This document shows positions 15,824 to 32,383 of a DNA stretch of 64,000 nucleotides, in pieces. Source of the DNA: Steroidobacteraceae bacterium (GTDB lineage: Bacteria > Pseudomonadota > Gammaproteobacteria > Steroidobacterales > Steroidobacteraceae); assembly GCA_027531255.1 (NCBI GenBank), contig JAPZRU010000007.1, forward strand, positions 372,001 to 436,000, read 5' to 3'. The notes under the pieces were generated by a model. That model did not search any database, was not told the DNA's origin, and worked only from the letters and a program-made list of their open reading frames with translations. Both the position numbers and the translations under genes were made by a program. Position 1 is the first letter of the stretch. Each line of letters opens with the position of its first letter.

Positions 15824-16347
15824 CGCGGCCCTGCCCCGGTGGTCCCGAACTCCCGCGAACCGCGCAGCGCCCACAGCAACAGGAACGCGCCGTAGCCCGC
15901 ACCGATCCACAGCACCGCCTCGACGTCGAGACGCGGGATCGGCGTGCGGTTCGCGTCGTAGACCAGTTGCGCGATCGCGCCCAGCACCAGCAGCGTGACG
16001 AGGCCGAGCCACGTGACGCGCCAGACGTGGCGCTCCCGGGCCCGGCGCTCGGCGTAGGCCGTCGCGGATTCGGCGAGGCCCGCGACACCCGGTCGCTGGC
16101 TCGGGCCCGCGGTTTGCCGTGGTCCGCCGAACTCGGGGACCAGCCACGCGGCGGCGGCCACCGCGCACGCGAGCCCGGCGTGTCCCCACGCGAGCCACTG
16201 GGTGGGTACGAACACGCGCGGCTCGCCCGCGGCGTCGAACCACGCCGCCGACAGGGCCGGCAACTGCACGAGGTGCCACGCCGCCTGGACGATCGACAGC
16301 ACGAGCGCGATCAGCAGCAGCCGGCGGACCAGGCCGTCGTTGGTCAC
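15820..16347 (-). CDS. Hypothetical membrane protein
   Basis: 175 residues, not recognised. Four hydrophobic segments are visible: residues ~8-30, ~50-70, ~113-132 and ~147-163, with a hydrophilic cytoplasmic or periplasmic loop at 72-110 rich in Arg and Gly. GTG start at 16347 (GTG-ACC-AAC); no clear ribosome site. It forms a two-gene unit with the DUF2784 gene by a 4-nt overlap. Nothing in the sequence indicates a catalytic role. Confidence 0.7.
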   Translation of the reverse strand: MTNDGLVRRLLLIALVLSIVQAAWHLVQLPALSAAWFDAAGEPRVFVPTQWLAWGHAGLACAVAAAAWLVPEFGGPRQTAGPSQRPGVAGLAESATAYAERRARERHVWRVTWLGLVTLLVLGAIAQLVYDANRTPIPRLDVEAVLWIGAGYGAFLLLWALRGSREFGTTGAGPR

Positions 16348-16527
16348 GACGACCGTTCCCGGCCGCGCGTCGCGCGTCGCGCGGTTCCGCGCGCGGGCCG
16401 CGCGGCCCGGCTCGCGCGGGCATCGGCTCGCCGCGCCGCCGGTTGCCCGGACCCCGGCCGGGACTTAACCTGCGCGCTCGCCGCTGGTGCCGCTTCCCGC
16501 TCCGTGTTCGCGAGGCCCGCCGCCCCG

Positions 16528-17526
16528 ATGTATGCGCTCTCCATCCGCAACCTCACGAAGACCTACCGCAACGGGGTCCAGGCGCTGAAGGGCATCGACC
16601 TCGACGTGCAGGAGGGCGACTTCTTCGCGCTGCTCGGCCCGAACGGCGCCGGCAAGACCACCACCATCGGCATCGTCACCTCGCTGGTCAACAAGACCGG
16701 CGGCGCCGTCTCGGTGTTCGGCCACGACCTCGACACGGATCTCGAGGCCGCGAAGTCCTGCATCGGCATCGTGCCGCAGGAGATCAACTTCAACCAGTTC
16801 GAGACGCCGGAGACGATCGTCGTCAACCAGGCCGGCTTCTACGGCATCCCGCGCGCGGTGGCGCGCGAGCGTGCCGAGAAGTACCTGAAGCAGCTGCAGC
16901 TCTGGGACAAGCGCAAGGCGATGTCGCGCACGCTGTCGGGCGGCATGAAGCGCCGCCTGATGATCGCGCGCGCTCTGGTCCACGAACCGCGACTCCTGAT
17001 CCTCGACGAGCCGACCGCCGGCGTCGACATCGAGATCCGCCGGACGATGTGGGAGTTCCTGCGCGGCATCAACGCGCAGGGCGTGACGATCATCCTGACC
17101 ACTCACTACCTCGAGGAAGCCGAGAACCTCTGCCGGCACGTCGCCATCATCGACCAGGGCCGCATCACCGAGCACGACCGCATGAGCACAGTGCTGCGCA
17201 AGCTGCAGACCGAGACCTTCGTGCTGAACCTGCGCGAGGCGGTCGCGCAGGCGCCGAGCCTGCCGGGCTACGCGGTCACGCTCGTCGACGACCACACGCT
17301 GGAGGTCGAGGTGGGCAAGGACCGCAGCCTCAACGACATCTTCGTGCGGCTCGCCGCGCAGGGCGTGGACGTGGTGTCGATGCGCAACAAGGTCAACCGG
17401 CTCGAGGAACTGTTCATGCGGCTCGTGGCGAAGGACGGCGCGGGCGCCGGCGGGAGTACGGGCGCCGCTGCGGCCGCCGCGGGATCCGCCGGTGGCGCAC
17501 GCGCTCACGGCGGAGGTGCCCGATGA
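16528..17526 (+). CDS. ABC transporter ATP-binding protein, YadG-like (ABC-2 type exporter)
   Basis: 332 residues. Walker A GPNGAGKTTT near residue 38, Q-loop VPQE near 86, signature LSGGMKRRL near 139, Walker B LLILDEPTAGVD near 158 and switch His in TTHYLEEAE near 195 are all intact. The sequence closely follows E. coli YadG in the first 240 residues; the C-terminal ~90 residues form the regulatory extension common to ABC-2 exporters and end in an Ala/Gly-rich low-complexity tail. It energises the membrane protein encoded next, with which it overlaps by 4 nt. Substrate unknown. The start ATG is placed at MYALSIRNLTKTY; the frame is open upstream but without homology. Confidence 0.93.
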   Translation: MYALSIRNLTKTYRNGVQALKGIDLDVQEGDFFALLGPNGAGKTTTIGIVTSLVNKTGGAVSVFGHDLDTDLEAAKSCIGIVPQEINFNQFETPETIVVNQAGFYGIPRAVARERAEKYLKQLQLWDKRKAMSRTLSGGMKRRLMIARALVHEPRLLILDEPTAGVDIEIRRTMWEFLRGINAQGVTIILTTHYLEEAENLCRHVAIIDQGRITEHDRMSTVLRKLQTETFVLNLREAVAQAPSLPGYAVTLVDDHTLEVEVGKDRSLNDIFVRLAAQGVDVVSMRNKVNRLEELFMRLVAKDGAGAGGSTGAAAAAAGSAGGARAHGGGAR

Positions 17527-18335
17527 ACGGTGCCACCGCCGCCGCCGTCCCGGCGTCGCGCTCGCGCGCCCGCGAGGCGTGGATCGGCTACCGCACGATC
17601 GTGATGCGCGAGTTCGGGCGGATCGTGCGCATCTGGGGCCAGACGATCGTGCCGCCCGCGGTCACGGCCACGCTCTACTTCGTCATCTTCGGCGAGCTGA
17701 TCGGCCGGCGGATCGGCGAGATGGGCGGCTACAGCTACGTGCAGTACATCGCGCCGGGCCTGATCATGATGTCGGTGATCACGAACTCGTACGGCAACGT
17801 GGTGTCGAGTTTCTTCGGCGCGCGCTTCGGCAAGCACGTCGAGGAAATGCTCGTCTCGCCGCTGCCGAACTGGCTGATCGTCGCCGGCTACGTGTCCGGC
17901 GGCGTGGTGCGCGGCCTGCTGGTCGGCGCGGTCGTCACGGCGGTCGCGCTGTTCTTCACGCACCTGCACGTGCACCACGCGTTCCTGATCGTCGCGGCCG
18001 TGCTCCTGACCTCGATCGTGTTCTCGCTCGGCGGCTTCATCAACGCCGTGTTCGCGAAGAACTTCGATCACATCTCGTGGTTCCCGACCTTCATCCTGAC
18101 GCCGCTGACCTACCTCGGCGGCGTGTTCTACTCGATCGCGCTGCTGCCAGGCTGGGCCGAGAACCTGTCGCACCTGAACCCGATCCTCTACATGGTGAAC
18201 GGCTTCCGGTACGGCTTCCTCGGCGTGTCCGACGTCGACGTCGGCTTCGCGTTCGCGATCATGATCGGCTTCGCGGTCACGCTGTACGCGGCGGCCGTGC
18301 TCTTGATGCACCGGGGGATCGGCATCCGGGAGTGA
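17523..18335 (+). CDS. ABC transporter permease, YadH-like (ABC-2 type)
   Basis: 270 residues with six membrane segments. An N-terminal amphipathic stretch is followed by GYRTIVMREFGRIVRIWGQT, the typical ABC-2 connecting helix, YFVIFGELIG, and the conserved HISWFPTFILTPLTYLGGVFYS and HLNPILYMVNGFRYGFLG in the second half. Partners the upstream ATPase as a homodimeric exporter in the inner membrane. ATGA overlap with the ATPase gene indicates a two-gene operon. E. coli YadGH has no firmly known substrate, so none is assigned. Confidence 0.93.
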   Translation: MNGATAAAVPASRSRAREAWIGYRTIVMREFGRIVRIWGQTIVPPAVTATLYFVIFGELIGRRIGEMGGYSYVQYIAPGLIMMSVITNSYGNVVSSFFGARFGKHVEEMLVSPLPNWLIVAGYVSGGVVRGLLVGAVVTAVALFFTHLHVHHAFLIVAAVLLTSIVFSLGGFINAVFAKNFDHISWFPTFILTPLTYLGGVFYSIALLPGWAENLSHLNPILYMVNGFRYGFLGVSDVDVGFAFAIMIGFAVTLYAAAVLLMHRGIGIRE

Positions 18336-18432
18336 CGGTCCGCGCCGCAGCGTGGCCGCTGCGGGTTTCCACGCGGGGACCCTTGCGCGTGTACCGATGC
18401 CGTGCCGCGGCGCGCGGTCCGGCCGCGAGCGG

Positions 18433-19107
18433 TCACTTCCGCTTCCAGCCGCCGTCTTCCTTGACCCACCAGCCGGGCTGGGCCTTGTCGATCCAGCGGC
18501 GGGCGAAGGTGCGCCGGATGTCGGCCGCCCAGCCCGGATTGCCATTCGCCTGGGCAATCTCCGCGTACAGCGCGGTGCGGTCGGCGTTCTCGTCGGCGAC
18601 CAGCTTGCGGACCGCAGTGCGCTCGGCCAGCGGAATCGAGTTCTGGTCGCGCACCTCGAGCACGCCGTCGTCGGTCGGGCCGACCGCGCCGGAGGCGTAG
18701 TGCGGCGCGAGCACCGAGTGGCGAGCTTCCATCGAGGCGACCAGCTGGCGGATGGCCGGCGTCGAGACGTTGAGATCCGGCTGCTGCGCGTGGGCCGCCG
18801 GCACCAGCAGATCGAGCACGCGGCCGGCGTAGGCGAGCAGAGCGCGCCCGGCGTCCGGGGCGGTCGCGAGACTGGAGCGCTTGTCGGGCTGCGTCGGTGC
18901 CGGGGGCGGCGTGCCGCCGCTGCCGTAGACCTGCTCGATGATGCGGTCGGCGGCCTTCTCGGCGGCCGCGGCGGGGAAGTAGACGTTGATCGTCACGCAG
19001 GCGGCGAGCGCCGCCGCCGCGAGCAGCAGCGCGGGCAGCGCCAGCAAGCGCAGCGGCGCGCGGCGGGCGCCGGGGCGGGACGTACGGAGCGCGAGCGGCA
19101 GGGTCAT
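18433..19107 (-). CDS. YdbL-like DUF1318 lipoprotein
   Basis: 224 residues starting at ATG 19107 behind a GGAGAAG site. A signal peptide ends in the lipobox LAAC (Cys near residue 40), followed directly by VTINVYFPAAAAEKAADRII, the N-terminal signature of this family, then a Pro/Gln-rich linker containing a second Ala-rich stretch, and the DUF1318 region (SIPLAERTAVRKLVADENAD) with a tryptophan-rich end (WWVKEDGGWKRK). In E. coli, YdbL acts with YdbH and the lipoprotein YnbE in phospholipid transport to the outer membrane. Here the DUF1318 protein itself is a lipoprotein. Follows the YdbH-like gene after 113 nt on the same strand. Confidence 0.85.
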   Translation of the reverse strand: MTLPLALRTSRPGARRAPLRLLALPALLLAAAALAACVTINVYFPAAAAEKAADRIIEQVYGSGGTPPPAPTQPDKRSSLATAPDAGRALLAYAGRVLDLLVPAAHAQQPDLNVSTPAIRQLVASMEARHSVLAPHYASGAVGPTDDGVLEVRDQNSIPLAERTAVRKLVADENADRTALYAEIAQANGNPGWAADIRRTFARRWIDKAQPGWWVKEDGGWKRK

Positions 19108-19220
19108 CGTCTTCTCCTGGGACGGGCCACGCGCGGCGGCGCGGCGGACCACGATTCTGGACCGGCGGGCTGAATGCCGCGTGAACGGCCGGGCGGGCCG
19201 GGCCCCGGTCCACCGACAAT

Positions 19221-21368
19221 CTACCGCACCTCGACGCCGCCCGACTCGGTCGCCGCCTGCAGCTGCTGGACGAGGCGCGTCCACGCGACGCGGTCGCCGT
19301 TGCCGATGATGTCGATCCGCGGCAGGCCGCTGCCGCGTACGATGTAGTAACCGCCGTTCGGCGCTGGGCCGACCCCGCTCATCCGGCAGACGTCGCGTTC
19401 GAGCCGGCACGACAGCCCGAGCCGGTCGTAGCGGAAGGTCTCGAAGAAGCGCATCACGCCGCCCTGCAGCGCCGCCGCGACCCCGAACCCGCCGCCGCCG
19501 ATGCTGGACAGGTTCTGCACCGCGCGCTGGCTGATGCGCCGGCGCGAGCGGTCGCCCTCGGGCGTCGCGAAGCTCGCGTCGAAGCGCACCGGCTGCCAGT
19601 CGAACAGCTCGAGGTCCGCGACGCGCCCCGACAGCCGCCCCGTGATCTCGCCGAATTCGAACGTGCCGGTGACGGCCTGCAGGTCGAGGTTGGTGACGCC
19701 GAGCGTGGTGTAGAGCCGCGGGAAGCGGCCGAGCGGGTCCTCGAGACGCAGGTCGCTCGCGACGACGCGGCCGCCGAACACGTCGGCCTCGAGGTTGCCG
19801 CCGAAGGTCAGCACGCCGTTCTCGAGCGCGGCGCGCGGGATCGTGCCCGCGATCGTGCCGCCGAACTCGGGCCAGCCGAGCGCCCGCGTGATCAGCGCGA
19901 TGCTGATCGGCTGCACGCGCGCGTCGAGCCTCAGCCACATCTTCGGAGTGCCGACGTGGCGCAGGCGCAGCGTGTCGATCGCGAGGCCGCCGTCGAGCAC
20001 CGGGATCACGGTCGGGGCGAGCAGCCGGAAGCCCCGGCCCGAGGTCGTGAAGCGCAGGTCCGCAGGGCCGAGCTGCATGCCGTACAGCCGGCCCGCGTCC
20101 CAGGCGAGCGTCGAGACGAACGCGTCGTCGGGCGCGGCGTCGTCCTGCGCCACCAGGCTGCGGGTCGCGTCGTCGTACCAGCGCACCCGGCCCTGCAGTC
20201 GCGTGAACGCGAGCGCGCCGCCCGGGTCGTCGAGGTCCAGCCCGTCGAGCGTCACGTCGAGGCTCGCCGGCGAGTCGGCGACGAGCAGCACCTGGCCGCG
20301 CAGCCGGCCGCGCGCGGTGCCGTTGCGCAGCGGAGTGTCCGTCAGGAGCGGCGCGACGTAGGCGCCAGCCCCCGGGAAATCGACCGACTCGAGCGCGATC
20401 TCGGCGCGGCGGATCCGGGGTGCGGTGCCCGCGACGGCGTCGTTCGTCGGCAGTCCGAGTTCCGCGGTGCCGGTGGCCGCGAAGGCGCCGCGCTGGCGGG
20501 CCGCGAAGCGCTCGACGCGCAGCCGTGCCGCGTCCGGTTCGAGGATGCCGGCGGCCTCGAGCTCGAGCGGCAGTTTCCCGAAGTCCACGAACACCGGGTC
20601 CGCGTAGCCCTGCCCGCCGGGCAGGGCCACGCGGGCGGCGAAGCGCCAATCGCGTCCCGCCGGCGCGAGGTTCGCCTCCACGCGGCCGGCGAGGTCGTCG
20701 GACGCGATCGAGCCCTCGGCGTTCGCGACGTCGACCGCTTCGAAGGTCAGCATCGCCCGCGCTGCGCGAAGCCGCGCGCCCGTGCCTTGCGCCGCGGCGT
20801 CGAGCTGCGCGCGGCCGCCGACGCTCCAGCCCTCGGGCAGGCCGGTCCACGGCTGCGCGAGGCGCGCGGCGGCGGCGAGATCCACGGCGCTCGCCGCCAG
20901 CGTCGCCTGCCAGCCAGCGTCGCGCGCGGTGCCGGCCAGCCGGGCGCGGCCGCCCGCCAGCGCGACGTCGCGCACGTCGAAGCGCAGCGCGCCGGTCACG
21001 CCGTGGTACTCGAAATCGACGGCGACGCGCTGTTCGCCGAGCGGCCCGAGCAGGCCGGCCACGCGCGCATCGCGGCAGCGCCAGAGGCCGCCGCGCGATT
21101 CGAGGCGCGGGCACTCGATCCGGAGTCGGCGAGCGGTACCGAGTTCGCCCGGCAGCCGCGCCTCGCGCACCTCGATCGTCGCCCGCGGATCGCGCGTACC
21201 CAATGTCAGCGCGACGACGATCCCCCGGGCCGACCAGCCGGGGCCCGAGGCGGCGTCGAGTGCGATGCGCGCGGTGCCGACGGCGTGGGCGGCCGGCGCC
21301 ACGAGCGCGGCGACCGCTATCATCGCCGCCGGAAACCGCCAAACCGACCCGCGCGAACCGCCGGCCAT
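19221..21368 (-). CDS. YdbH-like AsmA-family phospholipid transport protein
   Basis: 715 residues from the ATG at 21368. A short basic N-terminus and a hydrophobic segment (AAMIAVAALVAPAAHA) lead into a long beta-rich periplasmic region of AsmA-like repeats. The C-terminal part has the YdbH-type features: TPKMWLRLDARVQPISIALI, GWPEFGGTIAGTIPRA, GEITGRLSGRVADLELFDWQPV and a final GYYIVRGSGLPRIDIIGN. YdbH is one of the redundant inner-to-outer membrane phospholipid carriers alongside TamB and YhdP. A start 48 nt upstream (21416) is possible but lies inside the divergent gene. Probably an operon with the YdbL-like gene. Confidence 0.82.
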   Translation of the reverse strand: MAGGSRGSVWRFPAAMIAVAALVAPAAHAVGTARIALDAASGPGWSARGIVVALTLGTRDPRATIEVREARLPGELGTARRLRIECPRLESRGGLWRCRDARVAGLLGPLGEQRVAVDFEYHGVTGALRFDVRDVALAGGRARLAGTARDAGWQATLAASAVDLAAAARLAQPWTGLPEGWSVGGRAQLDAAAQGTGARLRAARAMLTFEAVDVANAEGSIASDDLAGRVEANLAPAGRDWRFAARVALPGGQGYADPVFVDFGKLPLELEAAGILEPDAARLRVERFAARQRGAFAATGTAELGLPTNDAVAGTAPRIRRAEIALESVDFPGAGAYVAPLLTDTPLRNGTARGRLRGQVLLVADSPASLDVTLDGLDLDDPGGALAFTRLQGRVRWYDDATRSLVAQDDAAPDDAFVSTLAWDAGRLYGMQLGPADLRFTTSGRGFRLLAPTVIPVLDGGLAIDTLRLRHVGTPKMWLRLDARVQPISIALITRALGWPEFGGTIAGTIPRAALENGVLTFGGNLEADVFGGRVVASDLRLEDPLGRFPRLYTTLGVTNLDLQAVTGTFEFGEITGRLSGRVADLELFDWQPVRFDASFATPEGDRSRRRISQRAVQNLSSIGGGGFGVAAALQGGVMRFFETFRYDRLGLSCRLERDVCRMSGVGPAPNGGYYIVRGSGLPRIDIIGNGDRVAWTRLVQQLQAATESGGVEVR

Positions 21369-22287
21369 GGACGCCACGAACACGCTTGCCACCCGTTCTG
21401 CCTCGGCTGCCGCCATTCAGGCGGCCCGACCCCGGGCTGTCAACGGCCGGGCGCGGCTTGCCCTCGCGCTCGCGGTGCTCGCGTTCGGGCTCGGCGGCTG
21501 CACCGCGCGGCTGATCTACGACCGGCTCGACACGCTGATCGCCTGGTACGTCGAGGACCGGCTCGAGCTCGCGGGCGGGCAGCAGCAGGAACTGCGCCGT
21601 CTGATCGGTGCGCAGCTCGAATGGCACCGCGAGACGCAGCTGCCGCTGTACGCGGACGCGTTCGCGACCCTGCAGCGCGACGCCGCGCGCCCGCTCGGCC
21701 GCGAACGGCTCGACCGGGCGCTCGTCGAGGCCGATGCGTTCTGGGCGGCGACGATGCGCAACGTCGCGCCCGAGGCCGCGCGGTTCATCGCCGGTCTCGA
21801 CGAGGCCCAGGTCGAGGGTCTGTTCCGCGAGTTCGCGGAGGACGACGCGGAGCGCCGCCGCAAGTTCGCCAGGGACTCGCCCGAAGAGCGGCTGGAGCGG
21901 CGTACGAAGCGCGCGATCCGCAGCATCGAGCGCTGGACCGGCCGGCTCGACGCGGCGCAGCGCGCGCGCGTCGCGCAGGCGACGGCCGCCGCGGAGCCGC
22001 TCGACGAGGCGTGGCTCGACAACCGCGCGCGGTGGCGCGCGGAGTTCCGGGCCGCGCTCGCGCGTCGCGCCGACGCGGGCGCGTTCGCGCGCGAGGTCGA
22101 GAGGCTGTTCGTCGAGCCGGAGAGCGCGTGGACCGCGGAGTATCGCGCCGCGACGCAGCGCAACCGCGAGCGTTATGTCACGCTCGTCGCGGACCTCGAC
22201 GCGACGCTGTCGCCGCAGCAGCGTGAGCGGGTGCGCAGCCAGCTCGCGACGTGGGCCGCGGATCTGCGCGCGCTCACGGTCGGCTGA
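21367..22287 (+). CDS. DUF6279 family lipoprotein
   Basis: 306 residues. A long basic n-region precedes the hydrophobic stretch LALALAVLAFGLGGC with a clear lipobox (Cys near residue 45), then TARLIYDRLDTLIAWYVEDR, typical of this gammaproteobacterial lipoprotein family. The mature part is helical and highly charged, with repeated Glu/Arg-rich segments such as EDDAERRRKFARDSPEERLERRTKRAIR. Function unknown. The ATG lies within CCATGG, where the start codon of the divergent YdbH-like gene occupies the other strand, so their promoters must lie within each other's coding regions or the true start is downstream. Confidence 0.8.
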   Translation: MDATNTLATRSASAAAIQAARPRAVNGRARLALALAVLAFGLGGCTARLIYDRLDTLIAWYVEDRLELAGGQQQELRRLIGAQLEWHRETQLPLYADAFATLQRDAARPLGRERLDRALVEADAFWAATMRNVAPEAARFIAGLDEAQVEGLFREFAEDDAERRRKFARDSPEERLERRTKRAIRSIERWTGRLDAAQRARVAQATAAAEPLDEAWLDNRARWRAEFRAALARRADAGAFAREVERLFVEPESAWTAEYRAATQRNRERYVTLVADLDATLSPQQRERVRSQLATWAADLRALTVG

Positions 22288-22387
22288 GTACGCGCGCTCG
22301 CATCCTGAACGTGGTTCGCGGTCCCATGCTGCGGAGCGGGGTACAAGACGCGCCGTTCCCCGCAGCGTCCCGTTCCCCGGAGTGACC

Positions 22388-23281
22388 ATGAGCCGCAGCC
22401 TGCATCTCGTCGACGTGTTCACCGACCGCCCGTGCACCGGCAACCAGCTTGCCGTGGTCACCGGGGCGAAGGGGCTCACGGCGCGGCAGATGCAGGCCTT
22501 CGCGCGCGAGATGAACTTCTCGGAGACGACCTTCGTGATGGCCGACCGCCCGGCGGGCGGCGCGTGGCCGGTGCGCATCTTCACGCCGGCCGAGGAAGTG
22601 CCGTTCGCCGGTCATCCGACGCTCGGCTCGGCGCACGTGATCCGCCACGTTCTGCTCGGCGGTCGGGTCGAGCGCGTGACGCTGTCGCTCGCGGCCGGCC
22701 CGATCCCGGTCGTCTACGAGCGCGAAGGCAAGCGCGAGCTCTACTGGATGCGGCAGAACGCGCCGACCTTCGGCCGGCGGCTGTCGCGCCGCGAGGTCGC
22801 GCCGGTGCTCGGCCTCGCGCCCTCGGACCTCGATGCCGCCCCGATCGAGGAGGTCTCGACCGGCCTGCCGTTCGTGATCGTGCCGGTGCGCACGAAGAAG
22901 GCGCTCGAGCGGATCCGCGTGAACCGCGACCTGCTGCTGAAGTTCGTCGCCGGGCTCGATGCGAAGGCGATCCTCGCGTTCGCGAAGGGCGCGAATGGCA
23001 GCGGCCACCACCTGACCGCGCGAGTGTTCGTCGACTACTACGGCATCCCCGAGGATCCCGCCACCGGCAGCGCGAACGGCTGCCTCGCGGCGTGGCTCGT
23101 CCAGCATCGCTGGCTCGGCGACGACGCGATCGACGTGCGCGTCGAGCAGGGCATGAGCATCGGGCGGCCCTCGGTGCTGCACCTGAAGGCGATGCGCACC
23201 TCGCGCCGCATCGAGGTCCGCGTCGGCGGCGGGGTCGTCGACGTCGCGCGCGGCACGCTGCTGGCCGCACGGCTCGCCTGA
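22388..23281 (+). CDS. PhzF-family isomerase-like protein
   Basis: 297 residues, full length for the PhzF/YddE family. Landmarks: LVDVFTDRPCTGNQLAVV at the start, catalytic Glu in REMNFSETTFV near residue 45, EVPFAGHPTLGSAHV near 75, and the second-domain mirror YGIPEDPATGSANGCLAAWL near 220. The fold resembles diaminopimelate epimerase. PhzF isomerises trans-2,3-dihydro-3-hydroxyanthranilate in phenazine synthesis, but no other phenazine gene is present, so this is a paralogue of unknown substrate. Stands alone; GGAG ribosome site 8 nt before ATG. Confidence 0.9.
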   Translation: MSRSLHLVDVFTDRPCTGNQLAVVTGAKGLTARQMQAFAREMNFSETTFVMADRPAGGAWPVRIFTPAEEVPFAGHPTLGSAHVIRHVLLGGRVERVTLSLAAGPIPVVYEREGKRELYWMRQNAPTFGRRLSRREVAPVLGLAPSDLDAAPIEEVSTGLPFVIVPVRTKKALERIRVNRDLLLKFVAGLDAKAILAFAKGANGSGHHLTARVFVDYYGIPEDPATGSANGCLAAWLVQHRWLGDDAIDVRVEQGMSIGRPSVLHLKAMRTSRRIEVRVGGGVVDVARGTLLAARLA

Positions 23282-23383
23282 CCCGCCCCGGCGCACCGCC
23301 GCGCGCGCGGCGAGTGGCAGTTTCCCCGACTCGCGGCTGAGCTAGACTCCCTGCGCCGTCCGGGGAAAGTCCACGAGGCTTCC

Positions 23384-24832
23384 GTGTCCGCGAAGCGCGC
23401 GCTGATCGTCGATGACTCGAAGTCCGCGCGGGTCGTGCTCGCGCGCATGCTCGAGAAGTACGGCATGCAGGTCGACACGATCGAGTCGGCCGAGGATGCG
23501 ATCGAGTACCTGAAGTCGCACCGCCCCGACGTGATCTTCATGGACCATCTGATGCCCGGCATGGACGGGTTCCAGGCGGTGCAGGCGATCAAGGGCAACC
23601 CGCTGACCGCGACGATCCCCATCATGATGTACACCTCCCAGGAGGGCGAACTGTACGTCGGGCAGGCACGCGCGCTCGGCGCGATCGGCGTGATGCCGAA
23701 GCAGGTGGCCCCGGTCGACGTCTCCAAGGTGCTGTACCAGCTCAAGCTGCTGCCGGATCGCCGGGACCCGCGGCCGAGCGGGTTCCAGCCGGCGAACGAG
23801 ACGGCCCCGCAGGCGTCGGTCGCGGCGGCGGGCGAGACGGCCGGAGGCGCAGCGGGCACCGAGGCTGCCGGCGCGGTCGTCGCGGCCGCCGCCGGTCCGG
23901 CCGAGACCCCCGTGCCGCCGAAACTGCCGCTGCCGGGCCTCACGTCGGCCGATGTCCGCGCGATCTTCGAGCCGGCGCTGAAGGAGCAGTCCGCGGAGCT
24001 CCGGCGCTTCGTGGTCGCGAGCCTCGACAGTTTCGCGGCGCGCGTGCTGGCCGAAACCCGCGAACTGGTGAAGTCCGCGGTGCCGCCGCCCGCGCCGCCC
24101 GCGCCGCCAGGCCCGCCGCCGGCGCCGGCCGCACCCGTCGGCTGGATCGCGCTCGCGCTGGTCGGCTGCGCGGTAGCCCTCGGAACGGCGTTCTATGCGT
24201 GGCAGCAGCACGCCACCCTCGCGGCGCTGCAGGCGCAGGTCGCCGCGCTCGCGGTGCCCAAGCCGGTCCCGGCGCCGGTCGCGCAACTCGCCGCGGCGAA
24301 CGCTGCCGCGGCGCTCGAGCCCGCCAGCCCGGGCGCGGAGAGCAACCCGCCGCCGGCCGCGAGTCGGCCCGCGACCCAAACGTTCCCCGCGGCCTACGGC
24401 GAGACCCCACTCTCCGGCGCACGCATCGAGGCGCTGCGCGAACTGTTCGCCGACCTCGACGGTCGCCGCTTCGCAGGCACCGTGCGCATCACCACGCACG
24501 TCGGCGATTTCTGCCTCGTCGGCAATCCGGGCGAGGGCTATGCACTCGCACCCCCCGACATGCCGGCGAACCGCTGCGATCTCGTCGGCAACCCGTTCGA
24601 CGACGCGCTGCGGCCCGCGCAGCGCCAGTCGGTGGCGTTCGCGAACCTGCTCGCGGACGTGCGTTCGCGCGCGAACGGCCGGTACGAAGTCACGGTCGCG
24701 CACGTCGGGCGGGACGGTCCGCGCCAGCCCTACCCGGACGGCGCCGAGGTCGATGCGGTCGACTGGAACGCGATCGCCGGCGTGAACCACCGCGTCGAGG
24801 TCGTCTTCGAGTCCGCGGGCACGCCGCCGTGA
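23384..24832 (+). CDS. Membrane-tethered response-regulator receiver protein with periplasmic C-terminal domain
   Basis: 482 residues from GTG 23384. Residues 1-120 form a complete receiver domain: acidic pair D10-D11, phospho-acceptor D54 in IFMDHLMPGMDG, T84 and K106. An Ala/Pro-rich linker follows, then a helical segment (SADVRAIFEPALKEQ to ETRELVK, ~188-230), a Pro-rich hinge, one membrane helix (~253-272, WIALALVGCAVALGTAFYAW) and a C-terminal domain (~345-482). This last part ends NHRVEVVFE, reminiscent of OmpA-like domains but not convincingly one. No DNA-binding domain. Topology predicts a cytoplasmic receiver and periplasmic C-terminus. Its stop overlaps the next start (GTGA). A TAGACT hexamer lies about 40 nt upstream of the start. 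Confidence 0.8.
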   Translation: MSAKRALIVDDSKSARVVLARMLEKYGMQVDTIESAEDAIEYLKSHRPDVIFMDHLMPGMDGFQAVQAIKGNPLTATIPIMMYTSQEGELYVGQARALGAIGVMPKQVAPVDVSKVLYQLKLLPDRRDPRPSGFQPANETAPQASVAAAGETAGGAAGTEAAGAVVAAAAGPAETPVPPKLPLPGLTSADVRAIFEPALKEQSAELRRFVVASLDSFAARVLAETRELVKSAVPPPAPPAPPGPPPAPAAPVGWIALALVGCAVALGTAFYAWQQHATLAALQAQVAALAVPKPVPAPVAQLAAANAAAALEPASPGAESNPPPAASRPATQTFPAAYGETPLSGARIEALRELFADLDGRRFAGTVRITTHVGDFCLVGNPGEGYALAPPDMPANRCDLVGNPFDDALRPAQRQSVAFANLLADVRSRANGRYEVTVAHVGRDGPRQPYPDGAEVDAVDWNAIAGVNHRVEVVFESAGTPP

Positions 24833-25878
24833 GCTGGCTGCTCTACGGCGCGAACGGCTACACCGGCGAACTCGCGGCCCGCGAGGCCGTGGCGCGCGGC
24901 CTGCGCCCGGTGCTGGCCGGCCGGTCGCGCGAGCCCGTCGAGCGGCTTGCGCGTGAACTCGGCCTCGAGGCGAGCGCCTTCGCGCTCGACGACGCGACGG
25001 CGGTTCGGGAAGCGCTCGCGGGCCGGTCGCTCGTGCTCCACTGCGCCGGCCCGTTCTCCGCGACGGCGCGCCCGATGCTGGAAGGTTGCCTCGCCACGGG
25101 CGCGCACTACCTCGACATCACCGGCGAGATCGCCGTGTTCGAGCTCGCGCAGTCGCTGGACGCGCGCGCGCGTGCCGCCGGCGTGCTGGTCTGCCCGGGC
25201 GTCGGATTCGACGTCGTGCCCACGGACTGCGTCGCGGCCGCGCTGAAGGAAGCGCTGCCCGGCGCCACGCACCTCGCGCTCGGTTTCGACGGCCAGTCCT
25301 CGTTCAGCCGCGGCACCGGCCGCACGATGATCGAGGGCCTGAAGGACGGCGGCTGCATCCGCCGCGACGGCCGGCTCGTGCGCGTGCCGCTCGGATACCG
25401 GGACCGGCGTATCGACTTCGGCGCCGGCGAGAAGCTCGCGATGACGATCCCCTGGGGCGACGTCAGCACCGCGTATCGCACCACCGGCATCCCGAACGTC
25501 GAGGTCTACATCCCGATGTCGCCGCGGCGCGTGCGGTCGCTGCGCCGGCTGAACTACGTGCGCCCGCTGCTCGGCCTCGGGCCCGTGCAGTCGTGGCTGA
25601 AGTCGCGCATCGACCGCCAGCCGCCGGGGCCCGACGCCGCGCAGCGGGCGCGCACGCCCACCCACGTCTGGGGCGAGGCGCGCGACGCGGCGGGCACCGT
25701 GAGGACGGCGCGCATCACGGTCGCGAACGGTTACACGGTGACGGTGCACGCGGCGCTCGGCATCGTGGAGCGCTTGCTGCGCGGCGACGTGCCAACCGGC
25801 GCGACGACGCCGGCATGCCTGATGGGCGCCCGCTACGTCGAGACGCTGCCGGGCAGCGGCCCGCTCGTCGTCGGTTGA
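24829..25878 (+). CDS. Saccharopine dehydrogenase-like (trans-acting enoyl reductase type) NAD(P)-binding protein
   Basis: 349 residues from GTG 24829, overlapping the previous stop by 4 nt. The N-terminal Rossmann motif YGANGYTGELAAREA (GxxGxxG) is followed by LAGRSREPVERLARELGLE, the sequence type of the family that includes mycobacterial trans-acting enoyl reductases and eukaryotic SCCPDH. CAGPFSATARPMLEGC and HYLDITGEIAVFE are conserved segments. It probably reduces or oxidises an unidentified substrate in the cytoplasm or at the membrane; true saccharopine dehydrogenase activity is unlikely. Followed 19 nt later by the YheT hydrolase gene. Confidence 0.85.
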   Translation: MSWLLYGANGYTGELAAREAVARGLRPVLAGRSREPVERLARELGLEASAFALDDATAVREALAGRSLVLHCAGPFSATARPMLEGCLATGAHYLDITGEIAVFELAQSLDARARAAGVLVCPGVGFDVVPTDCVAAALKEALPGATHLALGFDGQSSFSRGTGRTMIEGLKDGGCIRRDGRLVRVPLGYRDRRIDFGAGEKLAMTIPWGDVSTAYRTTGIPNVEVYIPMSPRRVRSLRRLNYVRPLLGLGPVQSWLKSRIDRQPPGPDAAQRARTPTHVWGEARDAAGTVRTARITVANGYTVTVHAALGIVERLLRGDVPTGATTPACLMGARYVETLPGSGPLVVG

Positions 25879-25897
25879 GCGGCGCCGGGGCTGCGCC

Positions 25898-26929
25898 GTG
25901 CGGCGCCTCGAGTTCACGCCGCCGCGCTGGCTGCGCAATCCCCACCTGCAGTCGATCCTGCCGAGCGCGGGCGTGCGCCGGCGCGACGTGCTGGCGCGCG
26001 CGGCGCCGCTGCTGCGCGCGAGTCGCGAGCGCATCGTCGACTGCGGCGACGGCGTGCGCCTGCACGGCTGGTACGCCGAGCCGCCGGCGCGACCCGGTCG
26101 CGATGAGCTCGTCGTGATGCTGCACGGCTGGGAAGGCAGCGCCGAGTCGCTGTACGTGCTGTCGGCCGCGCACCTGCTGCACGAGCAGGGCTACCACGTG
26201 TTCCGGCTGAACCTGCGCGACCACGGTCCGTCGCACCACCTGAACCCCGAGCTGTTCCACAGCTGCCGGATCGCGGAGGTGGTGGGCGCGGTCGGCGCGG
26301 TGCACCGCGAGTTCGGGGACCTGCGCCTCACGCTGGTCGGCTATTCGCTCGGCGGCAACTTCGCGCTGCGCGTCGCGGTCCGCGCGCCGGGTGCGGGCAT
26401 CAGGCTCGCGCAGGCGATCGCGATCTGCCCGGTGCTCGATCCCGCGCGCACGCTCCAAGCGCTCGAGCACGGCTTCTGGCTGTATCGCAACTACTTCGTA
26501 CTGAAGTGGCGCCGTTCGCTGCTCAAGAAGCACCGCGCATGGCCGGACCTCTACGACCTCGACGAACTGCGCGCGCGGCGCGACCTCGTCGGCATGACGG
26601 ACCACCTGATCCGGCGCTACAGCGAGTACTCGGACCTGCAGACCTACCTGCGCGGCTACGCGATCGTCGACGACGTGCTGGCGCCGCTGGCCGTGCCCGC
26701 GCGGATCGTGCACGCGCTGGACGACCCGATCATCCCGGCCGCGGACCTCGCGCGGCTCGCGCCGTCGGCCCGCCTGCACGTCGCGGTGACGGAGTACGGC
26801 GGCCACTGCGGCTTCCTCGAGCGGCTGCGCGGCGATTCGTGGATCGACCGCCACGTGCTGGCTGCGGTCCGCGAAGGGCCGCCCGCGTCGCCCGCGTCCG
26901 CGGCGCTCAGCCGCGCGCGTGGTGCCTGA
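25898..26929 (+). CDS. YheT-family alpha/beta hydrolase
   Basis: 343 residues from GTG 25898. Typical opening FTPPRWLRNPHLQSILPS, oxyanion segment MLHGWEGSAESLY, nucleophile elbow GYSLGGNF (Ser), late acid in LDDPIIPA and His in GGHCGFLE, so the catalytic triad is complete. The family (COG0429) includes E. coli YheT; members are esterase/lipase-like with unknown natural substrates. Probably co-transcribed with the upstream saccharopine-dehydrogenase-like gene. The last 23 bases overlap the convergent GDPD-like gene. Confidence 0.9.
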   Translation: MRRLEFTPPRWLRNPHLQSILPSAGVRRRDVLARAAPLLRASRERIVDCGDGVRLHGWYAEPPARPGRDELVVMLHGWEGSAESLYVLSAAHLLHEQGYHVFRLNLRDHGPSHHLNPELFHSCRIAEVVGAVGAVHREFGDLRLTLVGYSLGGNFALRVAVRAPGAGIRLAQAIAICPVLDPARTLQALEHGFWLYRNYFVLKWRRSLLKKHRAWPDLYDLDELRARRDLVGMTDHLIRRYSEYSDLQTYLRGYAIVDDVLAPLAVPARIVHALDDPIIPAADLARLAPSARLHVAVTEYGGHCGFLERLRGDSWIDRHVLAAVREGPPASPASAALSRARGA

Positions 26930-27665
26930 ACTCGTCGCCGAGTCGCGCGACCTGCGCGGTCGCCACGTAGTCGGCGCCCCGCGCCGCGAGCGCGACCGCT
27001 GCGCCCGGCTGCTCGACGCCGGATACGAGCCACCGCCACGGCCCGCGCCACAGCCGCGCCTCGCCCGTCGGCAGCAGCTCCGCCTCCACCAGCAGGAAAT
27101 CCGGGCGTAGCGCCTCGAACTTCAGACGCGCGTGCGCGTCGTACGCCGGCACGCGCCAGCCGACGCGTCCGTTCGAGCGCACCCGCGCGAGCTGCACCGC
27201 GGCGAGATCCGCGGCGGCCAGCACGCACTGCGCGCGCGTGCCCCTGATCGCCTCGAGCACGCGGCCGATCGCCAGTTCGCCGCCGAAGCGCGCGAGGCTG
27301 TCGCGCGCGATCTCGAGGAAGACGGTCAGGTCGGGTCGCCCGACGAGCCACGCGGACAGCTCGGCCAGCCGCGCGAGGCGCAGCCCGCGCGACCGCCCGG
27401 GCCGCGCGACCGCGTCCCGCAGTTCGAGGTGCTCGAGGTCGCGGCCGGCGAGGTCGAAGACGGTGCCGCCGACGTCGGCGATCCGCGCGAGCTCCGGCTC
27501 GCGCAGCAGCACGGGCGTCTCGTCGCCGGTCAGCTGGACGTCGACGAGCAGGAAACGCACGCCGTGCTCGCAGGCCGAAGCGAGCGCGGGCAGCGTGTTC
27601 TCGGGCCAGCTCGCCGCGTTACCGCGGTGGGAGACCAGGTGGGTGAAGTGGGCGGGTGCGCTCAT
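26907..27665 (-). CDS. Glycerophosphodiester phosphodiesterase-like protein lacking key residues
   Basis: 252 residues. The TIM-barrel opening SHRGNAASWPENTLPAL (His13, Arg14, Glu22) and the conserved FLLVDVQLTGDETPVLL strand identify the GDPD family, which hydrolyses glycerophosphodiesters to glycerol-3-phosphate and an alcohol. Active members have Glu-x-Asp in this strand and His-Asp just after it. Here the Glu is Leu40 while Asp42 is kept, and His-Asp is replaced by Arg55-Glu56. A metal ligand and the general acid/base are therefore missing, so the protein may be inactive or have another role. The start ATG at 27665 is next to the motif. Convergent with the YheT gene. Confidence 0.75.
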   Translation of the reverse strand: MSAPAHFTHLVSHRGNAASWPENTLPALASACEHGVRFLLVDVQLTGDETPVLLREPELARIADVGGTVFDLAGRDLEHLELRDAVARPGRSRGLRLARLAELSAWLVGRPDLTVFLEIARDSLARFGGELAIGRVLEAIRGTRAQCVLAAADLAAVQLARVRSNGRVGWRVPAYDAHARLKFEALRPDFLLVEAELLPTGEARLWRGPWRWLVSGVEQPGAAVALAARGADYVATAQVARLGDEFRHHARG

Positions 27666-27959
27666 CCGTGCCGGGCCGTCCATGCGGTGCGTCGTGCGTC
27701 GCGACGACGCGGAGCATCCAGGAGTGTCGCTGCGCCGAGACGCCGGAGGCGGCTCTCGTGCGCGTGGCTCCATGTCACGTTCCGACGCAGCGTAGCGGAC
27801 GATGGTACGGCGGATCGTGGACGGATCTCTCAATCGGCAGGCGGCGCGCCTTGCGGCAATCGCGCTCCGTGCGGCTTTGCACGGCTGCGGCGGCGGCTCG
27901 ACCACGCCGGGCTCGCCCGCGGCGCCGCCGCGGATCGGCAGCACCGTGGTCGACGCGCC
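27666..27959. other. Spacer without a convincing gene
   Basis: 294 bases between the start of the GDPD-like gene and the end of the bactofilin gene, both on the minus strand. A plus-strand frame from 27802 contains a lipobox-like LHGCGGGSTTPGSPA segment and then runs into the antisense of bactofilin; this is not convincing as a gene. No clear hairpin with a T run was found. Confidence 0.4.
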
Positions 27960-28370
27960 TCAGGTCAGCCGCGACGCGCGCTTCTCCTCGAAGCGGACTA
28001 CCGGCTCGGTGCCGGTGATCGACAACTCCCCATCCACCACGGCGCCGTGCGCGATCGCGAGCGACTTGGCGCGGACGTTGCCGCGGACCACCGCGGTCTT
28101 GCCGATCTCGAGCTTCTCGGTGACGACGAGATCGCCCGTCACGCGGCCGGCGATCACCGCGTTCCGCGCGACGCCGTCGCCCTGCCAGTGCGCGCCCGGC
28201 ATCACCGACAGCAGTCCGCGGATCTCGCCGTCGCCGACCAGTTCGCCCGCCAGCGTCAACGGGCCGGTCGTCGCGACGCGGCCCTCGAAGCGGCTGCCTT
28301 CGCCGAGCAGGGTGGGGACTCCCGAGGCGCGGTCGAACAGCCGGCGGCGCGGCTTGGGTGCGTCGGACAC
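27960..28370 (-). CDS. Bactofilin (polymer-forming cytoskeletal protein, DUF583)
   Basis: 136 residues from GTG 28370, which has a good GAGGAGA site 7 nt upstream; an ATG at 28454 in the same frame would add 28 residues without homology and would cover the promoter of the divergent gene. The central beta-helix region shows the bactofilin pattern of Gly- and hydrophobic-spaced turns (GEGSRFEGRVATTGPLTLAG, GDLVVTEKLEIGKTAVVRGN). Bactofilins self-assemble into filaments without nucleotide and scaffold cell-wall or appendage machinery. No peptidase partner gene is adjacent. Divergent from the DUF533 gene. Confidence 0.85.
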   Translation of the reverse strand: MSDAPKPRRRLFDRASGVPTLLGEGSRFEGRVATTGPLTLAGELVGDGEIRGLLSVMPGAHWQGDGVARNAVIAGRVTGDLVVTEKLEIGKTAVVRGNVRAKSLAIAHGAVVDGELSITGTEPVVRFEEKRASRLT

Positions 28371-28443
28371 GGACGGGTCTCCTCGGCGACACTTGTTGAT
28401 ATGGCCGTACGCGCCGTCCCGCCGTGGGTGCGGTGCGTTCGCG

Positions 28444-28465
28444 ACGGGAACCATCCACCTATACT
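28444..28465 (+). promoter_or_regulatory. Candidate sigma-70 promoter of the DUF533 gene
   Basis: TATACT at 28460-28465 is a one-mismatch -10 box; a weaker -35-like TCGCGA/TTCGCG lies about 16 bases upstream. The expected start of transcription is about 28472, leaving a 40-nt leader before ATG 28514. Confidence 0.4.
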
Positions 28466-28513
28466 AGCGGTCCCCACGCGGTGCGTTCGCTCGCCGCCGA
28501 CCCCGGAGGACCG

Positions 28514-29182
28514 ATGATCGATCCGAACAAGATCCTGAACGAACTCGCGAAGAGCGGTATCGGCGGCGGGATGGCCGGCGGGCTGATCTCGGGCGCGCTC
28601 GCGGGCGCGCTGACCGGCGGCGGCAAGGGCGGCGGCAACAAGCTGATGAAGCTCGGCACGCTCGCGGCCGTCGGCACGCTGGCCTACAAGGCCTACCAGA
28701 CCTACCAGAAGAACAGCGCCGCCGGCGGCCTGCCGGCGGCGGGCACTCCCGGTGCGTTCGGCGGCGCCGCGGCTGCGGGGGGCCTCGGCGGCGCGTGGGG
28801 CGCCCAGGCCTCCCAGCCGGCGCTCGGGGAGTCCGAGGCGATGACCCTGCTGCGCGCGATGATCGCGGCGGCGAAGGCCGACGGGCAGATCGACGCGCAG
28901 GAGACGCAGGCCATCACCGCGCAGCTCGGCAAGAGCGGGCTGTCCGCCGAAGACAAGGCCTTCCTGTTCGAGGAGCTGGCGCGGCCGCTGAACCTCGAGG
29001 CGGTGCTCGCCGGCGTGAAGTCGCCGCAGCAGGCGGCGCAGGTCTATGCCGCCTCGCGGCTGGTCGTCGCGGACGCATCCCCGGCCGAGCAGGCCTATCT
29101 CGGCCTCCTGGCCGCGCGCCTGAGTCTCGACCCGGCGATGACGCGAGAGCTCGACCAGGCCGTGAAGGCGCTGCCGGGCTGA
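28514..29182 (+). CDS. DUF533 / TerB-like domain protein
   Basis: 222 residues behind a perfect GGAGGA site. Residues ~10-70 are Gly/Ala-rich with a hydrophobic stretch ([20 protein letters not shown] then [18 protein letters not shown]), followed by a low-complexity Gly/Ala linker and a TerB-like helical domain ([20 protein letters not shown] through the end) with the acidic ADGQID and VVADAS segments. DUF533 proteins such as E. coli YebE are inner-membrane proteins of unknown function, some under envelope-stress control. Divergent from bactofilin and 37 nt before the Mrp operon, which may be co-transcribed. Confidence 0.87.
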
Positions 29183-29219
29183 CGCCCGGGCGCCTCGCCG
29201 GCTCCCGGTCGTTCCCGTG

Positions 29220-32003
29220 ATGGACACGGCGCTGCTCGCGCTGGCGCTCGTGCCGTTCGTCGGCGCGCTGCTGCCCGCGGCCGCGAAACGCCTGTTCGGG
29301 CTCGCCCCGGCCGTCGCCGCCGGGGCTACCGCGGTGCTCGCCCTCGGGCTGGTGCTGTGGCTCGCGCCCGCCGCGCTCGACGGCGGCACGACCGTGCACC
29401 GCTGGGAATGGGTGCCGTCGCTCGGCCTCGAGCTCGCGCTGCGCTGGGACGGCCTGTCTTTCCTGTTCGCGCTGCTGATCACCTCGATCGGCACTCTCGT
29501 CTGCGTCTACGCCAGCGGCTACCTCGAGCCGCACGAGGCGACGCCGCGCTTCTACGGCCTCCTGCTGCTGTTCATGGGCGCGATGCTCGGCATCGTGCTG
29601 TCCGAGAACCTGCTGGTGCTCGTGATCTGCTGGGAATTGACGTCGATCGCGTCGTTCCTGCTGATCGGCTTCCGGGGCCACGACGCCGACAGCCGCCAGG
29701 GAGCGCGGCTCGCGCTCCTGGTCACCGGCTCGGGCGGCCTCGCGCTGCTCGCCGGCGTTCTGCTGATCGGCGACGCGGTCGGCAGCTACGACGTGAGCGC
29801 GGTGCTCGCGGCCGCGGGCACGCTGCAGCAGCACCCGCTGTACGGCTGGATGCTCGGCCTCGTGCTGTTCGGTGCGTTCACGAAGTCGGCGCAGTTCCCG
29901 TTCCACTTCTGGCTGCCGCACGCGATGGCGGCGCCGACGCCGGTCAGCGCGTACCTGCACTCCGCGACGATGGTGAAGGCCGGCATCTTCCTGCTGATGC
30001 GGCTGTACCCGGCGCTCGGCGGCACGGCCGAGTGGTTCTGGGTGGTGTCCACCGCCGGCGCGGCAACGCTGCTGTTCGCGAGCGGCGTCGCGCTCTACAA
30101 GCACGATCTCAAGGGTCTGCTCGCGTATTCGACCGTCAGCCACCTCGGGCTGATCGTGCTGCTGATGGGCCTCGGCACGCCGCTGTCCGAGGTCGCGGCC
30201 GTCTTCCACCTGATCAATCACGCGGTGTTCAAGGCCTCGCTGTTCATGGCCGCCGGCATCGTCGATCACGGCGCGGGCACGCGCGACATGCGCCGCCTGT
30301 CCGGGCTGTTCCGGTTCATGCCGTATACCGCGACGCTCGCGCTCGTCGCCGCCTGCGCGATGGCGGGAGTACCGCTGCTGAACGGGTTCCTCAGCAAGGA
30401 GATGTTCCTGACCGAGACGCTGCAGCTGCGCGAGCTCGGCTGGGCCGGGCTCGTGTTCCCGGCGGCTGCGACGCTCGCCAGCATCTTCACGGTCGCGTAT
30501 TCGACGCGCTTCGTGCACGACGTGTTCTTCGGCGGTCCGTCGCGTGACCTGCCGCACGAGCCTCACGAGGCGGCGCGGTGGCTGCGCTTCCCGGTGGAGC
30601 TGCTCGTGATCCTCTGCCTCCTGGTCGGCTTGTTCCCCGGCGCCACCGTCGAGCCGATTCTCCGCGCCGCGGCGGGCGCCGTGCTGCAGGCGCCCCTGCC
30701 CGAGTTCACGTTGAAGATCTGGCACGGCTTCAACCTGCCGCTCGCGATGAGCCTGCTGGCGCTCGCCGGCGGCGTGACGCTGTACTTCTACCGGCGCTAT
30801 CGCGGCGGGCTGCACGACTACGTGCCGGCCTGGGTGCAGGGCAAGCGCCTCACGGAGGCCGCGGTCGCCTTCGTGCAGGACGGCGCGCGCGCGTTCTGGC
30901 CGGGCTTCGACGGCGAGCGCCTCGGGCGCTACCTGTTCGTGCTGGTGTTCTTCTCGCTGCTGGTCGGCCTGCTCGGGTACGCAGGTGCGCCGCTGGTCGG
31001 TCCGCGCCCGGTGCAGCCGGCGAGCGCGGTGGACGTGGTCGCGACCGTGCTGCTCGTGCTCGCGGTGGCCGCGACCGTCGTGCTGCACCGAGAGCGGCTC
31101 GCCGCGCTCGCGCTGGTCGGCGTGATCGGCCTGATCGTGGCGCTGGCGTTCGCGCGGTTCTCGGCGCCGGACCTTGCGCTGACGCAGATCCTGGTCGAGA
31201 TCGTCACGCTGCTGCTGCTCCTGCTCGCGCTGCGCTGGCTGCCGAACCGCACGCCGCGCGTCGCGCTCCGCGGCCGGCAGGCGCGCGATGCCGCGATCGC
31301 GATCGCGGCCGGCGCCGGCTGCGGCGCGCTGGCGCTCGCGATGCTGACGCGCCCGGTCGATACGATCGCGGGCTACTTCACCGCGACCGCGCCGGGTGAG
31401 GGCGGTGGCTACAACGTCGTCAACGTGATCCTCGTCGACTTCAGGGGCTTCGACACGCTGGGCGAGATCACCGTGCTCGGCATCGCCGCGATCGGCATCG
31501 CCGCGCTGCTGCACCGGCTCGAGCTCGGAAGGCCTGCTCTGGATCCGCTCGGCCGGGCCTGGGCCTCGCGGCGGAATTCGCTCCAGTTCGAGGTCGTCGC
31601 GCGGCCCCTGCTGCCGGTCGGCCTGCTCGTGTCGGCCTACCTGTTCCTGCGCGGCCACAACGCGCCGGGCGGCGGCTTCATCGCGGGTCTCGTCACGGGC
31701 GTCGCCGTGTTCGTGCAGTACCTCGCGCGCGGCGCCACGTGGGTGGACGAGCGGCTGCCGCTCAACTACGCGCACGTGATGGGCTGGGGTCTCGCGATCG
31801 CCGTCGTCTCCGGGCTCGGCAGCCTCGCGTTCCGACACCCGTTCCTGACCTCGTCGACGCCGACGTTCGAGCTGCCGCTGCTCGGCGAACTGAAGTTCGC
31901 GAGCGCCACGTTCTTCGACCTCGGCGTGTATCTCGCGGTGGTCGGCACGGTGCTCGTGATCCTCGCGGAGCTGGCCGGGCTGCGCCGGCAGGAGCGCGGC
32001 TGA
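29220..32003 (+). CDS. mrpA: Na+/H+ antiporter subunit A fused to subunit B (MrpAB)
   Basis: 927 residues, large subunit of the multisubunit cation/proton antiporter (Mrp/Mnh/Pha), inner membrane. The first ~500 residues match NADH dehydrogenase subunit NuoL-type antiporters ([54 protein letters not shown] split in two). After a MrpA C-terminal region, residues ~780-927 match MrpB ([38 protein letters not shown]). The Na+ or K+ specificity cannot be told. GTG at 29217 immediately precedes ATG 29220; either may start. First gene of a six-gene operon of overlapping genes equivalent to pha-type A(B)CDEFG. Confidence 0.95.
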
Positions 32004-32383
32004 TGGAGTGGCTGCTGGCGCTCGCCATCGGCGTGCTGGTCGCGGGCGGGGTCTGGCTCTGCCTGCGCGAGCACGTGTTCCCGGTGCTGCTCGGGCTGAC
32101 GCTCGTGTCGTACGCGGTCAACCTGTTCCTGCTCGCGAGCGGCCGACTGACGCTCGGCAGCGCGCCGCTCGTCGACGTGGCCCAGGCCGAGTATCCCGAC
32201 CCGCTGCCGCAGGCGCTGGTGCTGACCGCGATCGTGATCGGCTTCGCGATGACCGCGTTCCTGGTCGCGCTCGCGCTGCAGGTGGTGCGGCAGGAGGGCG
32301 TCGAGCACGTGGACGGCGCGGCCGGCGAGCAGGCCGACGCCGCGTCTCCCGAGCGCGACGGCGCCGACGGAGCAGGCCGATGA
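32003..32383 (+). CDS. mrpC: Na+/H+ antiporter subunit C (MrpC)
   Basis: 126 residues, three membrane helices, homologous to NuoK. Landmarks: FPVLLGLTLVSYAVNLFLL and DPLPQALVLTAIVIGFAMTAF, the second being the classic NuoK/MrpC motif. A hydrophilic Ala/Asp-rich tail extends the C-terminus. ATG overlaps the mrpA stop by one base (TGATG) and the next start by four, so translation is coupled. Confidence 0.95.
   Translation: MEWLLALAIGVLVAGGVWLCLREHVFPVLLGLTLVSYAVNLFLLASGRLTLGSAPLVDVAQAEYPDPLPQALVLTAIVIGFAMTAFLVALALQVVRQEGVEHVDGAAGEQADAASPERDGADGAGR

Follow-up and report, generated by a model that had tools for sequence, protein, structure and literature searches.

Response regulators are generally regarded as soluble proteins, with outputs that act on cytoplasmic DNA, enzymes or proteins. 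A different group of proteins, including MotB/PomB, TagL, TssL and ZorB, combines a cytoplasmic N terminus, a membrane helix, a linker and an OmpA-like domain. LapD is described as an inside-out c-di-GMP receptor (PMC5231407, PMC3032553). Among the papers listed by full-text literature searches, whose coverage left out most subscription papers, none deals with a response regulator that spans the membrane and carries a periplasmic or OmpA-like domain.

The window analysed here, a stretch of 64,000 nucleotides from a Steroidobacteraceae bacterium, encodes a protein that shares features with each of these systems. The receiver gene, its predicted parts and the relevant downstream genes are as follows.

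23375-23378 (+): GAGG, a ribosome-binding-like site before the GTG start (sequence)
23384-24832 (+): complete ORF with a GTG start, 482 amino acids, comprising receiver, linker, helix, membrane helix and OmpA-like domain (sequence, model)
23393-23743 (+): CheY-like receiver, residues 4-120 (Pfam PF00072, invariant residues)
23744-23944 (+): flexible Ala/Pro-rich linker, predicted cytoplasmic, residues 121-187 (pLDDT mostly <50 over 128-176; 26% mean pairwise identity)
23945-24079 (+): long helix, predicted cytoplasmic, residues 188-232 (full-length model; most of the helix at a block pLDDT of about 86-90)
24080-24136 (+): Pro-rich linker before the membrane, residues 233-251 (sequence, model)
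24137-24250 (+): helix, residues 252-289, its first part (252 to about 275) being the predicted membrane span (hydropathy, model)
24251-24373 (+): Ala/Pro linker, predicted periplasmic, residues 290-330 (mostly low pLDDT; 20% mean pairwise identity over 285-330)
24374-24814 (+): domain of predicted OmpA-like fold (CTD), residues 331-477 (AlphaFold2, Foldseek, VIA)
24512-24577 (+): Cys-containing insertion with C377 (24512-24514) and C398 (24575-24577) (Cys in 66/66 rows; profile alignments to OmpA domains)
24829-25878 (+): saccharopine-dehydrogenase-like next gene, its GTG overlapping the TGA of the receiver gene (present in 4/28 related loci compared)
25898-26929 (+): YheT-like alpha/beta hydrolase, the commonest downstream neighbour (18/28 loci compared)
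27960-28454 (-): bactofilin gene, convergent (PF04519, E 9.3e-20)

A scan for a promoter and a terminator around the receiver gene found neither. The full-length AlphaFold2 model (23 sequences) has a mean pLDDT of 79.2 and a pTM of 0.41, and consists of a receiver at residues 1-119, a disordered linker, a helix at 188-232, a Pro-rich gap, a helix at 252-289, a further linker and a domain at 331-477. Because the pTM is low, the placing of these parts relative to one another is unpredicted. The architecture is not a product of chance, as full-length relatives occur in many genera. A first-pass annotation had described a complete CheY-like receiver and Pro-rich linkers, and both descriptions hold: the receiver has a Pfam match and all catalytic residues, and Pro/Ala-rich stretches are present at about 121-187 and 233-251. 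Its estimate of some 135 residues after the membrane helix was too low, the actual number being about 205 with the folded part at 331-477, and the structure prediction that it proposed from residue 345 would cut off the first strand of the CTD.

The PF00072 match covers residues 7-114 (E 6.6e-24; 84.7 bits, against a curated cut-off of 30.2), and the Pfam scan of the 482 amino acid protein found nothing besides. The NCBIfam scan gave partial receiver matches only, and those shown all lie under their own cut-offs; neither scan found a DNA-binding or enzymatic domain. The acidic pair D10/D11, the phospho-acceptor D54 (codon 23543-23545), T84 and K106 are invariant in the aligned rows (A1, 18/18; A4, 23/23). 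The window protein resembles the single-domain receivers CheY, PilG and PilH, which likewise have an intact receiver and lack a DNA-binding or enzymatic domain, but it adds a membrane helix and a putative periplasmic domain and belongs to a clade of its own (100/99). That clade, a subfamily of 50 rows in a tree of 57 receivers, is separate from seven other receivers of the genome. The receiver of a ChpA/PilL-like hybrid CheA is the nearest other one encoded in the same genome (39% identity).

A K-P dipeptide is typical of receivers. In the window protein K106 is followed by Q rather than P (residue 107, 23702-23704), and the residue after the conserved lysine in the OmpA forms is Q, T, S, D or L, with proline in 0/18 and 0/23 rows; K-P is kept in 17/17 tail-anchored and 4/4 soluble relatives listed. 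The tail-anchored receivers of Marinobacter, Hahella and Oleispira belong to the same receiver subfamily and have the helical region and one membrane helix, but they differ from the window protein in retaining K-P and in having nothing beyond the membrane helix.

A single hydrophobic stretch is present in the window protein, 19 residues from 252, with a Kyte-Doolittle mean of 2.11. Exactly one hydrophobic peak (1.61-3.01) occurs in each of 65/65 scored members, with no second peak above 1.6, in keeping with the single membrane helix of the first-pass annotation; this member set and that used for the cysteines include copies or near-copies, such as L027/L037, L035/L117 and L050/L115. The positive-inside rule is uninformative, as basic residues inside are more numerous in 24 of the 65 members, equal in 17 and fewer in 24, and these counts give the orientation no support. 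We infer the orientation from the need of a receiver for the cytoplasm and from the cysteines. Exactly two cysteines follow the membrane helix in 65/65 full-length members, and any cysteine precedes it in 15/65. C377 and C398 are present in 66/66 aligned CTDs, with no other Cys column above three, and this invariant pair supports a periplasmic CTD. The earlier placement of the receiver at the envelope with the C-terminal domain outside is supported by the single predicted membrane helix, the invariant cysteines and the OmpA-like fold of the model.

When modelled alone (AlphaFold2, 25 sequences, A2), the CTD has a pLDDT of 91.6 and a pTM of 0.84, indicating a folded domain that had been overlooked when only the sequence was read. 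The order of strands and helices, E-H-E-(hairpin)-H-E-H-E, fits the beta-alpha-beta-alpha-beta-(alpha)-beta fold of OmpA/MotB/Pal (PF00691), at VIA Z scores under 8. In a Foldseek search of the PDB, OmpA-like domains rank first, the best match being 3td5 (E 1.4e-3, prob 1.00); MotB 3s06, OprF 5u1h and TagL 5m38 are further top matches, and none reaches E 0.001. VIA-align lists 50 entries with Z scores of 7.5 to 5.5, headed by 4rha (Z 7.5, 114 residues, 3.3 A). The titles of 47 of the 50 name OmpA, MotB/PomB/MotS, Pal, YfiB, TagL, TssL, PorE, ZorB, RmpM, YiaD or similar, all of which we take to be proteins of the OmpA-like fold; those without such a title are 8z5n, 4zhw and 4zhy. A Z score under 8 would be weak taken alone, yet the list is uniform.

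Sequence comparisons do not detect this fold. No Pfam OmpA match was found in any of 25 members, the CTD profile had no credible match among PDB sequences, and hhalign against OmpA domains of this and related genomes gives probabilities of 1-5%. In local mode the real profile (22.4) outscores 200/200 column shuffles (mean 11.6, maximum 22.2), whereas the reversed profile reaches 23.5; only global mode favours the real order (17.6 vs 5.6). Given this weak hhalign similarity and the higher local score of the reversed control, only the fold is claimed for the CTD; sequence homology between the CTD and OmpA was considered and dropped.

Relative to OmpA, the profile alignments place an insertion of about 25 residues containing the cysteines between the second strand and the second main helix. 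Four OmpA positions, D49, N57, L60 and R64, are invariant across the five OmpA domains of this genome and presumably match the residues with which TagL contacts diaminopimelate. For TagL, these contacts are described as Asp, Asn, Leu and Arg (PMC8253398). Among the hhalign-aligned CTDs, in a region where the alignment is uncertain, D399 is Asp in 29/66 and R414 is Arg in 45/66, both being present in 24/66; D399 and R414 are spaced like the Asp and Arg of OmpA. All four contact residues occur together in 0/66, and N407 in 0/66. Conserved instead are W461 and N462 (each 66/66), N468 (61/66) and R470 (57/66), and we regard the N-x-R of N468/R470 as reminiscent of the N-R-R of OmpA.

The CTD profile matches 25/369 sampled genomes of the Gammaproteobacteria and, across the phylum, 2/398 genomes, both of that class; a plasmid search with the CTD gave no match. 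Receivers with E <1e-35 were detected in 34/59 genomes of the sample of relatives, including 25/36 of the same family, own genome included. Among the 25 CTD loci other than that of the window, the receiver is carried by 22/22 with a complete ORF, a count that leaves aside L115 (part of a receiver), L120 (cut by a contig edge) and L139 (at a contig edge). At one locus (L043:5635-6928) the CTD frame differs from the receiver frame, reflecting a frameshift or a sequencing error.

In the receiver tree, a branch (98/97) sets apart the 36 OmpA-form rows, whose nearest neighbours are tail-anchored proteins from Oleispira and L058 (97/84). The tree gives the OmpA form one origin (98/97) within a receiver subfamily that also holds tail-anchored and soluble members. 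As the tree has a midpoint root and long branches for six of the seven outside receivers, a change from tail-anchored to OmpA form is only the presumed direction. The CTD is absent from the tail-anchored members in Marinobacter, Hahella, Oleispira and Parendozoicomonas and from the soluble members in Solimonas and Nevskia. Genus g11 (G010, L026:1501-2664) has kept the receiver and membrane helix, with no CTD in the locus by tblastn. This loss, together with the soluble and tail-anchored relatives that have no CTD, indicates that the receiver can serve without it. The periplasmic tail at L026 has shrunk to an Ala/Pro-rich stretch and amounts to a natural deletion of the OmpA-like domain; G030:C33:5391-6254, seen as a partial match only, was grouped with it. 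Such a natural series, soluble, tail-anchored, OmpA-linked and OmpA lost, would allow outward two-component action across the inner membrane to be tested against mere positioning.

Constraint is distributed unevenly along the protein. Mean pairwise identity (A1, 153 pairs) is 76.6% for the receiver, 43.9% for the CTD, 31.7% for the helix, 29.9% for the membrane region and 26.2% and 20.3% for the linkers; within the long helix 188-232, R207 is invariant in A1. Constraint is strongest in the receiver, which suggests that the main function lies in its protein contacts.

We would give an even chance to the reading that this is an orphan response regulator tethered in the envelope, with a receiver that exerts its effect at the membrane. 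The cytoplasmic receiver would take its phosphoryl group on D54 from a kinase whose gene lies elsewhere, and phosphorylation would alter which partners the receiver and the adjoining helix bind on the inner side of the membrane, an output like that of protein-binding receivers of the CheY/PilG type. The OmpA-like domain would lie in the periplasm with C377 and C398 joined as a disulfide, and would hold the protein to an envelope partner without relying on the usual diaminopimelate pocket. Such anchoring would be like that of MotB or TagL, and the window protein shares with MotB/PomB, TagL, TssL and ZorB the order of cytoplasmic N terminus, membrane helix, linker and OmpA-like domain. It differs from MotB- and TagL-type anchors in its N-terminal receiver, its Cys insertion and the peptidoglycan-contact residues that it does not keep. 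Unlike a MotB-type stator it lacks an Asp within its membrane stretch (252-275), and no MotA-like gene was named among the scanned neighbours. The uninformative positive-inside rule, the weak OmpA profile similarity and the Z scores under 8 count against tethering. Moreover, most members keep the CTD with its cysteines, and its loss was seen in one genus only within the family; the domain must therefore be of consequence, and the single loss suggests, against pure tethering, that it does more than serve as a passive anchor.

A doubtful but real possibility is that the signal passes outward, with receiver phosphorylation altering how the membrane helix dimerises or tilts and thereby switching the binding of the periplasmic OmpA-like domain, much as LapD acts for c-di-GMP. 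The likeness to LapD lies in a cytoplasmic signal domain that is linked across the membrane with a periplasmic one; a phospho-receiver stands in place of the EAL/HAMP receptor, LapD-type HAMP, GGDEF and EAL domains are absent from the Pfam scan of the window protein, and no periplasmic partner is known for it. Intact catalytic residues, helices on both sides of the membrane (188-232 and 252-289), the cysteines invariant in all CTD rows and the single clade of the OmpA form are all consistent with outward signalling. Against it stand the linkers from receiver to helix, from helix to membrane and from membrane to CTD, which are poorly conserved and modelled at low confidence, the loss of the CTD in genus g11 and the lack of a recognised periplasmic effector gene alongside. 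The flexible, poorly conserved linkers that flank the membrane helix in the model, together with the loss in g11, speak more for tethering. Tethering is preferred on the grounds of these loose linkers, of a receiver conserved far better than the rest and of relatives that manage without the CTD. Tentatively, a set of Gammaproteobacteria might nonetheless have a class of transmembrane response regulators that send a two-component signal outward, with kinase-driven phosphorylation of the receiver controlling the grip of a disulfide-bearing OmpA-like domain on the wall or outer membrane. If a catalytically complete receiver has in this conserved lineage gained an OmpA-like domain that spans the envelope, response regulators would have a further, new class of output.

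It is unlikely that the CTD is a plain peptidoglycan anchor that binds diaminopimelate as in OmpA, Pal, MotB or TagL. The predicted fold would suit such a role, as would the 24/66 rows with both D399 and R414 at the OmpA spacing, but the four TagL contact residues are never found together and N407 is missing throughout. Signalling in the opposite direction, in which the OmpA-like domain would read the wall or redox state and change how easily the receiver is phosphorylated or dephosphorylated, is improbable as well; the invariant cysteines of the insertion could be redox-sensitive, but a Cys pair is equally expected for stability, and the same flexible linkers intervene. That the hydrophobic stretch is no membrane span and the entire protein is cytoplasmic is very improbable: the missing positive-inside bias would fit, but the strong single peak in every scored member, paired cysteines conserved in the C-terminal part only, the C-terminal tail anchor of relatives and the established extracytoplasmic location of other OmpA-like folds all argue against it.

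The first-pass annotation saw no histidine kinase adjacent to the gene, and none was recognised among the inspected ORFs of 15000-35000, nor beside the gene in the 13 loci listed, judged by eye from the first ORF residues. A ChpA-like kinase core is present in 32/34 genomes with the receiver family and in 18/25 without it (Fisher p 0.029, uncorrected, the genomes not being independent). This kinase was considered as a partner and not named as one, because two genomes hold the receiver without it. Flagella (FlhA) show no association with the receiver family (p 0.18).

Upstream of the receiver gene are an ABC exporter, YdbL/YdbH-like genes, DUF6279 and PhzF. The two ORFs at 18433-21416 (-) resemble, in our judgement, YdbL and YdbH, and neither has a Pfam or NCBIfam match at 1e-4. 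The saccharopine-dehydrogenase-like gene, the YheT-like hydrolase, a glycerophosphodiesterase and the bactofilin follow downstream, and the neighbouring genes vary outside the family. A convergent downstream bactofilin within 12 kb was found in 20/34 genomes, four of the other 14 being without any bactofilin and some of the genes sitting on short contigs. Bactofilin presence shows no association with the receiver family (p 0.47), and inherited synteny explains the proximity as well as function does. The convergent neighbour is itself conserved across several families of the order. Further downstream, the ORFs at 29217-35229 (+) resemble, by eye only, a Mrp-type multi-subunit antiporter operon.
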